A DNA stretch of 64,000 nucleotides, taken from assembly GCF_021531435.1 (NCBI RefSeq), contig NZ_JAFBIS010000002.1:124001-188000 (forward strand), written 5' to 3'. A program made the translations under genes and the position numbers. The notes under the pieces are model-generated. The model was not told the origin of the DNA and did not search any database. It was given only the letters and a program-made list of their open reading frames with translations. Position 1 is the stretch's first letter. Every line of letters begins with the position of its first letter. Source of the DNA: Oscillibacter valericigenes. GTDB lineage: Bacteria; Bacillota; Clostridia; Oscillospirales; Oscillospiraceae. Of the stretch, positions 29,691 to 57,661 are shown in pieces.

Positions 29691-31130
29691 ATGGCACAGG
29701 ATAAGAGACAAGTGGACGCCATCACTGCCCGGGACGTGGATTTCGCCCAGTGGTACACCGACGTCTGCAAAAAAGCCGAGCTGATCGACTATACCTCCGT
29801 GAAGGGTATGTTCATCTACCGCCCCTATGGCTACGCCATCTGGGAGAACATCCAGAAGGAGCTGGACAAGCGGTTCAAGGAGACGGGACATGAGAACGTG
29901 TATCTGCCCGTTCTGATCCCCGAGTCCCTGCTCCAGAAGGAGAAGGACCACGTGGAGGGATTTGCCCCTGAGTGCGCCTGGGTCACCATGGGCGGCAGCG
30001 AGAAGCTGGAGGACCGCCTCTGCGTCCGCCCCACCTCCGAGACTCTGTTCTGCGAGCATTACGCTAACATCATCCACTCCTGGCGGGACCTGCCCAAGAA
30101 GTACAACCAGTGGTGCTCCGTCCTGCGGTGGGAGAAGACCAGCCGTCCTTTCCTGCGCCACCGGGAGTTCCTGTGGCAGGAGGGCCACACCATGCATGCC
30201 ACCGAGGAAGAGGCCCGGGAAGAGACCATGCAGATGCTGAACATCTACGCCGACTTCATGGAGAACTTCCTGGCCATGCCCGTCATCCGGGGCCGCAAGA
30301 CCGAGAAGGAGAAGTTCAAGGGCGCTGAGGAGACCTACACCGTGGAGTGCATGATGCACGACCACAAGGCTCTCCAGGCCGGCACCAGCCACTATTTCGG
30401 CGACGGCTTTGCCAAGGCCTTCGACATCACCTTCGCCGGCAAGGACAACCAGCCCCACCATCCCCATCAGACGAGCTGGGGCGTGTCCACCCGCATGATC
30501 GGCGGCATCATCATGACCCACGGCGACGACAACGGCCTGGTGCTGCCTCCCCGGGTGGCCCCCATCCAGGCGGTGGTCATCCCCGTGGCCCAGCACAAGC
30601 CCGGCGTTCTGGACGCCGCCGCCGCCCTGCGTGACCGTCTGACCGCGGCGGGTATCCGTGCCAAGATGGACGATTCCGACAACTCTCCCGGCTGGAAGTT
30701 TGCCGAGTATGAGATGAAGGGCGTGCCCCTGCGGGTGGAGATCGGTCCTAAGGACATGGAGAAGGAGCAGTGCGTCATCGCCCGCCGGGATACCGGCGAG
30801 AAGGTGATGGTGCCTCTGGCGGAGCTGGAGGACAGGGTGGCGGAGCTGCTGGACGCCGTCCACGACAATATGTACGCCATGGCGCTGAAGAACCGTGAGG
30901 ACAACACCTTCGACATCAAGACCCCCGAGGAGGCCAAAGCCATCGCCGACGGCAAGGGCGGCTTCCTGCGGTCCAAGTGGTGCGGCTCTCTGGAGTGCGA
31001 AATGGCCATGAAGGAGCGGGCGGGCGTTTCCTCCCGCTGCATGCCTCTGGCACAGTCCGGCACCGAGGGCGTGTGCCCCGTGTGCGGCAAGAAGTGCACC
31101 ACTGATATTTACTGGGGTGTAGCATATTAA
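29691..31130 (+). CDS. proS: Prolyl-tRNA synthetase, archaeal/eukaryotic type
   Basis: A 479-residue class II synthetase of the shorter ProS type without the bacterial INS editing domain. The core includes VRPTSETLF, the motif 2 region LRWEKTSRPFLRHREFLWQE, and a motif 3 GDDNGLVLPPRVAP block. The C-terminal zinc-binding domain has four Cys (CGSLECE-type and CPVCGKKC) and ends in the conserved aromatic Tyr. Start ATG 29691 has AAAGGA upstream. It stands alone, with its own promoter, and is followed within four bases by the repeat element at 31134. Confidence 0.96.
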   Translation: MAQDKRQVDAITARDVDFAQWYTDVCKKAELIDYTSVKGMFIYRPYGYAIWENIQKELDKRFKETGHENVYLPVLIPESLLQKEKDHVEGFAPECAWVTMGGSEKLEDRLCVRPTSETLFCEHYANIIHSWRDLPKKYNQWCSVLRWEKTSRPFLRHREFLWQEGHTMHATEEEAREETMQMLNIYADFMENFLAMPVIRGRKTEKEKFKGAEETYTVECMMHDHKALQAGTSHYFGDGFAKAFDITFAGKDNQPHHPHQTSWGVSTRMIGGIIMTHGDDNGLVLPPRVAPIQAVVIPVAQHKPGVLDAAAALRDRLTAAGIRAKMDDSDNSPGWKFAEYEMKGVPLRVEIGPKDMEKEQCVIARRDTGEKVMVPLAELEDRVAELLDAVHDNMYAMALKNREDNTFDIKTPEEAKAIADGKGGFLRSKWCGSLECEMAMKERAGVSSRCMPLAQSGTEGVCPVCGKKCTTDIYWGVAY

Positions 31131-31133
31131 AGA

Positions 31134-31261
31134 GGGGACTTCGTCCCCCCCCCTTTAGATTCCCCCTCACCAGTGAAGCGTTCTTCACTGGTGTCGCCGC
31201 CCAAGGCGGCTGGGTCAATGTATTTTTGTCAGGCGCATGTCCTGACAAAAATGATTGAAAT
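31134..31261 (-). repeat. Multi-hairpin repeat element, copy 1
   Basis: Read on the minus strand: ATTTCAATCATTTT lead-in, hairpin 31222-31252 (12-bp stem), a linker with GACCC, hairpin 31196-31210 (GCCGCC/GGCGGC), hairpin 31168-31193 (CACCAGTGAAG / CTTCACTGGTG), a G-rich linker, and hairpin 31134-31148. Copy 2 at 54773-54901 has the same order, linkers and spacing with different stem sequences that still pair. The element starts four bases after the proS stop, antisense to proS. As transcribed from proS it may also act as a terminator, although the run after the first stem is C then T. The next 60 bp to the rpsJ promoter show nothing recognisable. Confidence 0.8.
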
Positions 31262-31357: not shown

Positions 31358-31636
31358 GCTGTGCGGCAGGGGATGCCCTGTCCGCGGCACTGCGATGAAC
31401 CGGGAGATTGCTCCGAGAGGAGGTAACTTCCGGGGAGTATGTCCGATAATCGGGCGGCTGAGAAGTTCTGTGCGTCGCGTAGATCGCCACGCCATGAACA
31501 GAGTACCGGCCTGCTTTGTGCCGGTATTTTTCATGAGCTGGAATGATACGCACGGATAAGCGTATAGAAAATCTCTCGCCGTAGGTCGTCGAGACTGCGT
31601 GACAAAACGACGTACGAAATCAGGAGGAAACAAACC
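31358..31636 (+). promoter_or_regulatory. Structured leader RNA of the S10 operon
   Basis: About 280 nt between the promoter and rpsJ. It holds a 5' hairpin (31361-31390), a middle folded region, an intrinsic terminator (31504-31531) and a 3' part of 105 nt. A terminator inside the leader points to attenuation, by analogy with r-protein control of S10 operons in other bacteria (L4 in E. coli). The regulator here is not known. A 13-base match (TCGTCGAGACTGC) links the leader around 31586 with the rpsJ coding region around 31713. Confidence 0.6.
31504..31531 (+). terminator. Putative attenuator in the S10 leader
   Basis: Stem TACCGGC / GCCGGTA with a nine-base loop, followed immediately by TTTTT. 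It lies 105 bases before rpsJ and after a strong promoter, so full-length transcription would require readthrough. Confidence 0.7.
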
Positions 31637-31948
31637 ATGGCACAGAAAGAAATGATCCGCATTCGTCTGAAGGCCTATGACCACCAGGTCATCGACCAGA
31701 GCGCAGAGAAGATCGTCGAGACTGCCAAGCGCACCGGCGCCGAGGTCTCCGGCCCCATCCCTCTGCCCACCAAGAAGGAAGTCGTCACCATCCTGCGGGC
31801 CGTGCACAAGTACAAGGACAGCCGCGAGCAGTTCGAGCGCCGCACCCACAAGAGACTGATCGACATCACCAAGTCCACTCCCAAGACCGTCGAGGCTCTG
31901 ATGGCCCTCGAGCTGCCTGCCGGCGTGGAGATCGAGATCAAGCTGTAA
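31637..31948 (+). CDS. rpsJ: Ribosomal protein uS10
   Basis: A 103-residue small-subunit protein, also the NusE partner in antitermination. It begins [17 protein letters not shown], the typical uS10 N-terminus, and contains GPIPLPTKK and [15 protein letters not shown] precedes ATG 31637. It is the first gene of the superoperon but is unusually separated from rplC by 263 bp. Confidence 0.98.
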
Positions 31949-54664: not shown

Positions 54665-54769
54665 GCGCCCCCTGCCCTCCGGCAGGAGAACAGGGGGCGT
54701 GATCAGACAGAGGAAAGGGGCTAGGGGAAACCTACGGTTTCCCCAGTTCATTCGCCAAAGGCAAATGAA
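54665..54769. other. Hairpins upstream of the small membrane-protein gene
   Basis: Three stems with no coding potential: 54665-54699 (GCGCCCCCTG / CAGGGGGCG with an inner CCTGCC/GGCAGG), 54724-54744 (perfect 9-bp GGGGAAACC / GGTTTCCCC, TAC loop) and 54747-54769 (nine of ten pairs). They abut repeat copy 2 and may belong to the same composite element. Confidence 0.65.
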
Positions 54770-54772
54770 GAA

Positions 54773-54901
54773 ATTTCAATCATTTTCGCCGCGGCGTGTA
54801 CGTGGCGAAAATACCTCGACCCGTGCGCCCTTGGGACGCACACACCAGTGGCCAATGTCACTGGTGGTGGGGGAGGTCGAGGGGGAGCCTGCTCCCCCTC
54901 G
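54773..54901 (+). repeat. Multi-hairpin repeat element, copy 2
   Basis: In order: ATTTCAATCATTTT lead-in, hairpin 54782-54812 (12-bp stem), a linker ending CGACCC, hairpin 54823-54841 with a CCTTGGG centre, hairpin 54843-54866 (CACCAGTG / CACTGGTG), a G-rich linker, and hairpin 54878-54901 (10-bp stem). The segment 54814-54821 also pairs with 54875-54882 as an outer stem. It is homologous to the minus-strand element at 31134-31261. It ends six bases beyond the secA stop, antisense to secA, and probably also serves as the secA terminator region. Confidence 0.8.
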
Positions 54902-54907
54902 AAAGCG

Positions 54908-57661
<2,754 letters not shown>

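Follow-up and report, generated by a model that had tools for sequence, protein, structure and literature searches.

A structure-defined, interspersed hairpin mosaic of Oscillospirales found in bacteria and some viruses

Two hairpin clusters in a 64,000-nt stretch of the Oscillibacter valericigenes contig NZ_JAFBIS010000002.1 (the window, in whose numbering all positions are given) raise the question of what kind of element keeps its parts in order while its stems change sequence. The initial annotation had described them as homologous, lying antisense to proS and secA at 3–6 nt from the stop codons, with three differing but still pairing stems, and this description was borne out at both sites. 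Copy 1 (31134..31261, minus strand) lies 3 nt downstream of the prolyl-tRNA synthetase gene (29691-31130, plus strand, stop codon 31128..31130), which was identified by its ORF and the Pfam prolyl-tRNA synthetase C-terminal domain. Copy 2 (54773..54901, plus strand) lies 6 nt downstream of secA (54908-57661, minus strand, stop codon 54908..54910; ORF and Pfam SecA), and each copy is antisense to its gene. Read along the element strand, both consist of the lead-in ATTTCAATC, a core hairpin H4, a GACCC strand, hairpin H3 with a CTTGGG centre, hairpin H2 with CACCAGTG, a G-run pairing with GACCC, and a G-rich hairpin H1 that adjoins the stop codon.

In copy 1, all on the minus strand, H4 occupies 31222..31252 (ATTTT-stem-ACATGCG loop-stem-AAAAT) and is followed by the GACCC strand at 31212..31216, H3 at 31196..31210, H2 at 31168..31193 (CACCAGTG...CACTGGTG), the GGGGG strand at 31162..31166, which closes a junction with GACCC, and H1 at 31131..31156. 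The corresponding parts of copy 2, on the plus strand, are H4 at 54782..54812 (ATTTT-stem-GCGTGTA loop-stem-AAAAT), the GACCC strand of the junction at 54818..54822, H3 at 54823..54841 with the same CTTGGG centre, H2 at 54843..54866 (again CACCAGTG...CACTGGTG), the GGGGG strand pairing with GACCC at 54869..54873, and H1 at 54877..54902. Two further plus-strand hairpins, H5 (54747..54769, TTCATTCGCC...GGCAAATGAA) and H6 (54724..54744, GGGGAAACC...GGTTTCCCC), stand upstream of copy 2 outside these limits and are lacking at copy 1; a hairpin similar to H5 precedes H4 in other families, and H6 is present at other copies of the same genome. The CACCAGTG stem is almost common to both window copies, and the remaining stems are unlike yet pair. 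Folding gave z = -7.04 and -7.32 for the two copies, and none of 200 dinucleotide-preserving shuffles folded as well. Elsewhere in the window, an S10-Clostridia ribosomal leader (RF03136, 40.6 bits) was found just beyond copy 1 at 31387-31457 on the plus strand, followed by the ribosomal protein S10 gene (31637-31948, Pfam), and a 68-nt direct repeat (712-779 and 942-1009) is 96% identical at a distance of 230 nt.

The two copies belong to a large family. A strict pattern retrieved nine copies from the window's genome and none with the reversed control, and a covariance model built from these nine (R1, E cut-off 0.001) found 33 matches in the same genome, 28 of them above 60 bits. Among the matches at or below 60 bits, L039 proved to be another copy read on the opposite strand, and L038 a diverged relative whose stems are different. 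A search of 60 genomes, run with stricter filters than that of the own genome, yielded R1 matches in 27: the own genome, 25 of the 36 same-genus relatives, whose copy numbers range from 0 (in 11 of them) to 34, and one of 23 genomes of other families (G042). Named loci place the family in Dysosmobacter and Oscillibacter, with two copies in Oscillibacter valericigenes An860; an 18-base pattern also matched many loci in unrelated phyla, in a collection of a size where chance matches are expected. The initial annotation had not recognised a named family. In searches with Rfam covariance models, no Rfam family matched the element at gathering score, the gathering-level matches being ribosomal leaders and a SAM riboswitch only, all outside the element, and the weak overlaps with it (e.g. 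sraA, E = 3) fell far under the cut-offs. Among the papers listed by literature searches, none describes the element.

The covariation suspected from the two window copies was then judged across the family. Among 99 distinct rows, 97.6% of cells paired in the consensus structure versus 90.0% after shuffling, 19 of 33 pairs changed on both sides versus 10.3, and the covariation score was 0.235 versus 0.098. All five pairing and covariation measures exceeded 500 of 500 shuffles and every slid version, a figure that does not amount to a probability because the copies are related and the alignment was fitted to the model's own structure. When the partner was slid by 1–3 columns, pairing fell to 47–58%. 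Paired positions change together more consistently than after shuffling. The same was seen free of any model in G076 and G191, two genomes of one genus with 48 copies, where the H1 and P2 stems are unlike from copy to copy and pairing is near-perfect: 1212 of 1257 cells in 69 distinct long stems are Watson-Crick, in a set whose H1 stems include neighbouring terminator hairpins and some of whose P2 outer arms are misassigned.

Wobble pairs were counted by a symmetrical rule in seven sets of the element's own hairpins, two of them overlapping H4 sets, and in each set G-T outnumbered A-C on the element strand. For H4 across groups the G-T:A-C ratio was 47:9, a single position giving 33 of the 47; further sets gave 29:9, 25:9 and 31:4, and those of Dysosmobacter 19:12, 19:12 and 32:13. 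In the model alignment it was 135:63, or 86:62 without the dominant position, with 12 pairs leaning one way and five the other. The asymmetry thus leans, to a moderate degree, to the strand antisense to the gene, which speaks against a purely mRNA-level function.

The element also keeps a fixed place relative to genes. Genes were called after training seeded with proS and secA, and Pfam bore out the called strand in all 17 right-hand genes scanned. The 139 model matches included seven same-place repeats and one weak reverse-strand match; orientation was counted on 132 distinct Dysosmobacter-type copies. With copies that have no gene or a sense gene at the right kept in the counts, the gene at the H1 end runs on the opposite strand in 124 of the 132, on the element strand in five, and is uncalled in three. 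L011, L286, L306, L029 and L033 are caller failures, each having at the element end an opposite-strand ORF that was outscored by a rival or did not reach the cut-off, and L047 and L063 look like real exceptions. In 101 of the 132 copies, no more than 8 nt separate the element end from the stop codon of the gene. The left gene is co-directional with the right-hand gene in 111 copies, opposed in 16 and uncalled in five, and among strict H4 pattern copies the right-hand gene was opposite in 76 of 76.

In the own genome, 17 of the 28 stop-abutting genes were scanned, and all 17 match Pfam. They encode methionyl-tRNA synthetase, HU, GroES (followed by GroEL), a PLP enzyme, a response regulator, PNPase, a phospholipase D type protein, an ANTAR protein, triosephosphate isomerase (followed by iPGM), prephenate dehydrogenase, BipA, L1, a TPP enzyme, UPRTase, a class V aminotransferase, an M20 peptidase and an ACT protein, so that copies sit inside the groES-groEL and tpi-gpmI gene pairs. 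The list gives the impression of a housekeeping-gene bias. Outside Dysosmobacter, in counts that omit copies inside called genes and hold some twice-fetched loci in the G042 and f19 sets, the right-hand gene was opposite in 12 of 17 copies of G042, 15 of 16 in the f19 genomes and seven of eight in g25/g30; the figures for G076 and G191 were 29 of 32 and 10 of 13 (one of the 13 without a called gene). The gene ends there are mostly 90–250 nt from H4, and some are further away.

The core of the element is H4, which consists of an A/T-rich base, the loop RCRTGYR and a free stem. Three families of the order have it, with stems that are unrelated to one another. The pattern ATTTT-N6-9-RCRTGYR-N6-9-AAAAT matched 22 times in the own genome, 13 times in G060 and 25 times in G042, and the reversed pattern never. 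Among 394 genomes of the order, 98 had at least one match, a level at which the control also yields single matches; at least five matches were present in 17 genomes (nine of the own family, four of f7 and four of f19) versus none of the 394 for the reversed control, and the highest count in one genome was 135 (G076). The f7 carriers G042, G070, G089 and G134 have 20–32 matches each, and G106 of the same genus has none. A tightened pattern matched eight of 391 genomes across the class. Three of these belong to the own family and have between 2 and 132 matches; the other five, among 373 genomes outside the order, have one match each. H4 stems are wholly unlike between genera. Of 81 distinct H4, 77 have G..A or A..G at the loop ends, where the pattern would accept any two purines; in 68 of the 81, A-T or G-T forms the third pair counted from the loop.

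The remaining architecture varies around this core. Outside Dysosmobacter, one stem with a small internal loop (GCAAGTG / CGCRCAGC) replaces the H3/H2 junction, and the hairpin ACCAGTCCGCAGACTGGT occurs in elements of both the Dysosmobacter and the non-Dysosmobacter type. A conserved GCCTCGCAGAGTTT with a short hairpin stands upstream of H4 in several families (G042, g25/g30; L380, L394, L345) and before H4 in the viral loci L453, L462, L464 and L465, suggesting that the full element may exceed the modelled part. In L416 and L420 of G076, H4 is joined nearly directly to a GCACG tail with neither middle stem nor H1. Judged by eye in g26, a pseudoknot or kissing contact of the H4 loop with the GCACG that follows H1 was not supported, since loop position 3 changes while GCACG stays.

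The element is also carried by viruses. In IMG/VR, 11 contigs hold 14 copies, and four of the 15 pattern-matching contigs lack the structure. The right-hand gene runs on the opposite strand in all 14 viral copies, and a scan of 20 proteins from seven of the 11 contigs showed portal and peptidase genes, endolysin and tail protein genes, and a virion structural gene as neighbours. Neither window copy had a match among GenBank phages or plasmids.

Clustering the right-hand genes from the 139 rows gave 65 gene clusters, and in 26 of them more than one genome has a copy, far above chance. Six of ten copies fetched from G061 lie behind the same gene as an own-genome copy, and G061 carries the element at both window sites with another H1 type than the own genome. 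Presence at a given site is patchy: the element stands behind proS in three of 30 fetched loci and behind secA in five of 30, with two more secA loci holding remnants and one locus in each set hidden by a contig end. The secA remnants, L220 (G007) and L231 (G020), are a lone H1-like hairpin in one case and a lone H4 arm with lead-in in the other. Between genera, only one of 70 non-Dysosmobacter stop-abutting genes, triosephosphate isomerase, has a clear counterpart among the 123 Dysosmobacter ones. No pair of filled and empty sites was clean enough to show exact flank junctions or target duplications, as the element-free proS and secA loci are too diverged. The proposed structured intergenic repeat family is thus upheld by many copies, covarying stems, a fixed place and orientation, and patchy presence at orthologous sites. 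Its mobility, like its transcription and function, is inferred, neither a mover nor a clean insertion having been seen.

Copies behind the same gene are hardly more alike than others. In a comparison of the 120 of 139 rows that could be split into modules, leaving out loci from named records or without a right-hand gene, 98 same-gene pairs from different genomes were set against 4379 different-gene pairs. The likeness was 0.84 versus 0.80 for H4 (same-genome pairs 0.82), 0.70 versus 0.69 for H3 (0.70), 0.84 versus 0.82 for H2 (0.82), and 0.71 versus 0.68 for H1 (0.69). L016 and L280, which lie behind the same gene, have identical H4 and H2, an H1 one base apart, and a different H3 stem. This points to replacement of a whole module, as does the H1 exchange between the own genome and G061 at both window sites. 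The loops also receive repeats of their own. A 45-nt hairpin repeat lies inside the H4 loop in nine copies (L029, L035, L036, L037, L064, L098, L168, L264 and L274), six in one orientation and three in the other, placed between loop bases 3 and 4 where readable; one further unit stands alone at L030 (minus strand, from 1071), not within an H4. Insertion in both orientations is as nested mobile repeats would behave. In addition, a 60-nt structured unit occupies the H3 loop in five copies (L032, L033, L035, L037 and L325), all in one orientation.

Several known systems resemble parts of this picture. Integron attC sites keep their structure while the stem sequence varies, and they lie in fixed orientation behind a gene's stop codon with the folded strand antisense to the gene. 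The element likewise keeps its structure with varying stems in fixed orientation behind a stop, but its genes are housekeeping genes rather than cassettes. The REP/BIME sequences of enterobacteria and pseudomonads, which go with RAYT transposases, are short palindromic, extragenic, high-copy mosaics of units often near gene 3' ends, a subset being reported within 15 nt of a stop codon (PMC12306157). High-copy extragenic palindromes are found here as well, with 33 matches in the own genome and up to 135 H4 in one genome. Unlike REP/BIME, the element is about 130 nt long with four or more hairpins, has conserved loops rather than a conserved foot, keeps one fixed orientation to the upstream gene, and has no tie to a Y1/RAYT gene; no GTAG or CGTC tag was found at the palindrome end in the copies read, CGTC occurring inside the H4 stem of one genus. 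The BOX elements of Streptococcus pneumoniae are described as modular, intergenic, structured and of MITE-like origin (PMC3049150), and the element shares the first three of these features. It differs in that its stems change wholesale between copies while loops and linkers are kept, and in its fixed orientation at stop codons; by reading, its two ends, formed by the H4 lead-in and H1, do not match as inverted repeats, and no matching IS was noticed. Repeated intergenic stem-loop families with a shared secondary structure, to which the element is likewise comparable, were reported from 40 genomes by Cozzuto et al. 2008 (PMC2267715). On the best reading, the element behaves like an interspersed repeat of the REP/BOX type, but it fails the RAYT and tag features of REPs.

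What the element does can be approached by weighing these observations against one another. Orientation locked to the upstream gene would suit a cis-acting mRNA element, the first structure after the stop, that sets mRNA stability, translation termination or the gene ratio of an operon as some E. coli REPs do. The left neighbour is co-directional in 111 of the 127 distinct copies with a called left gene, copies stand between groES and groEL, tpi and gpmI, and the phage portal/peptidase and endolysin/tail genes, sites are common to several species, and the 17 Pfam-matched genes (of 28) include many housekeeping ones; moreover, a lowering of translation has been reported for E. coli REPs that lie 15 nt or less from a stop codon (PMC12306157). 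This explanation is possible, if on the improbable side, as the wobble pairs favour the other strand (G-T above A-C on the element strand), stop contact is not maintained outside Dysosmobacter, with H4 mostly 90–250 nt away, and the carrier genes differ between genera. The wobble asymmetry would fit better an independent small RNA made from the element strand, antisense to the abutted gene and with H4 at its 5' side; readthrough would extend it by an antisense tail over the 3' end of that gene. In one genus, 23 copies are followed by a terminator-like hairpin; the element strand has the longer T-run in 10 of them and the other strand in four, the runs being equal in nine. The promoter-like score upstream of Dysosmobacter copies was 7.33 versus 6.98 (sd 0.07) for shuffled sequences. 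A promoter upstream of H4 was nevertheless rejected as a general feature, since only the Dysosmobacter set rises above the shuffles, and that score is not independent because the upstream sequences are related repeats. The scores were 6.68 versus 6.68 in the most-copied genus and 6.54 versus 6.62 in f7, and within error in f19 (7.29 versus 7.10, sd 0.27), and the window copies have no terminator after the element, which makes a small RNA hard to credit.

A transcription terminator or attenuator module, for which the place behind genes, the GC-rich hairpins and the terminator-like hairpins beside many G076 and G191 copies would speak, has the faintest chance of all. H1 of the window copies lacks a U-run, in H4 the T-run precedes the A-run, opposite to the order in a terminator, copies are found within conserved operons, and ordinary hairpin-plus-T terminators occur elsewhere in the window. 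By reading, a U-run after a GC-rich hairpin on the gene-sense strand is absent at both window copies. With neither U-run nor a general upstream promoter signal, and with copies inside groES-groEL and tpi-gpmI, the small RNA or terminator module once suggested is not supported for the window copies. Movement by a Y1 (HUH) transposase with the folded single strand as its substrate, as for REP/REPIN- or IS200/IS605-type elements, would match a hairpin-based, extragenic, high-copy repeat of fixed strand, and Y1 transposase genes are present in the own genome (four matches) and in G023; the mover could also have been lost. PF01797 is absent from G191 (51 H4 matches), G042, G070, G089 and G134, several genomes without an H4 match do have Y1, and the copies read showed neither GTAG nor CGTC as an end tag, so such a mover is highly improbable. 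As a candidate mover, Y1 transposase was rejected on its absence from genomes with 20–51 H4 matches and its presence in several with none. Reverse transcriptase was set aside too, as its presence does not follow copy number: PF00078 had no match in G076, in the f7 genomes G042, G070, G089 and G134, or in G017, G023 and G028, which are incomplete draft assemblies.

An explanation with about an even chance of being right is that of a REP/BOX-like mosaic element that spreads and is overwritten module by module at the DNA level by a putative H4-reading enzyme. The element would spread by copying or conversion of DNA, the enzyme recognising H4 in the folded strand, and resident copies would be overwritten one module at a time. 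Insertions would survive, or be made, only just behind a stop codon and in one direction, where they would disturb no promoter or start site, and the mRNA would then carry the inserted element as a strong structure in its 3'-UTR or between cistrons. Patchy presence, genes unshared between genera and the wobble asymmetry favour such DNA-level spreading over the cis-acting mRNA element, in whose favour stand the location in operons and the sites shared within the genus. The 26 shared clusters among 65 together with 97.6% pairing argue that copies are kept for something, or are refreshed, and so count against DNA-level spreading as framed here. A bolder proposal, which we consider unlikely, is a structure-defined, order-wide, phage-borne replicator whose functional form would be the single strand antisense to the host gene. 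Only loops and linkers would be fixed and stems rewritten as paired units behind the same genes, and the replicator would be moved and refreshed by a new type of H4-loop-reading enzyme, or would act as an RNA scaffold with 3' readthrough antisense to the neighbouring gene.

The element is a small non-coding, structure-defined interspersed hairpin mosaic of Oscillospirales, present in bacteria and some viruses. Most bacterial hairpin repeats are recognised by sequence, whereas here the stem letters are nearly free, and it is the architecture, the loops and the orientation that persist across families and phages, which makes the element a natural experiment on what recognises folded nucleic acid. 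As it stands at a fixed place after the stops of phage and housekeeping genes, the element is probably part of many transcripts in common gut bacteria, and the 3' ends, mRNA stability and operon stoichiometry of these little-studied organisms may depend on it.
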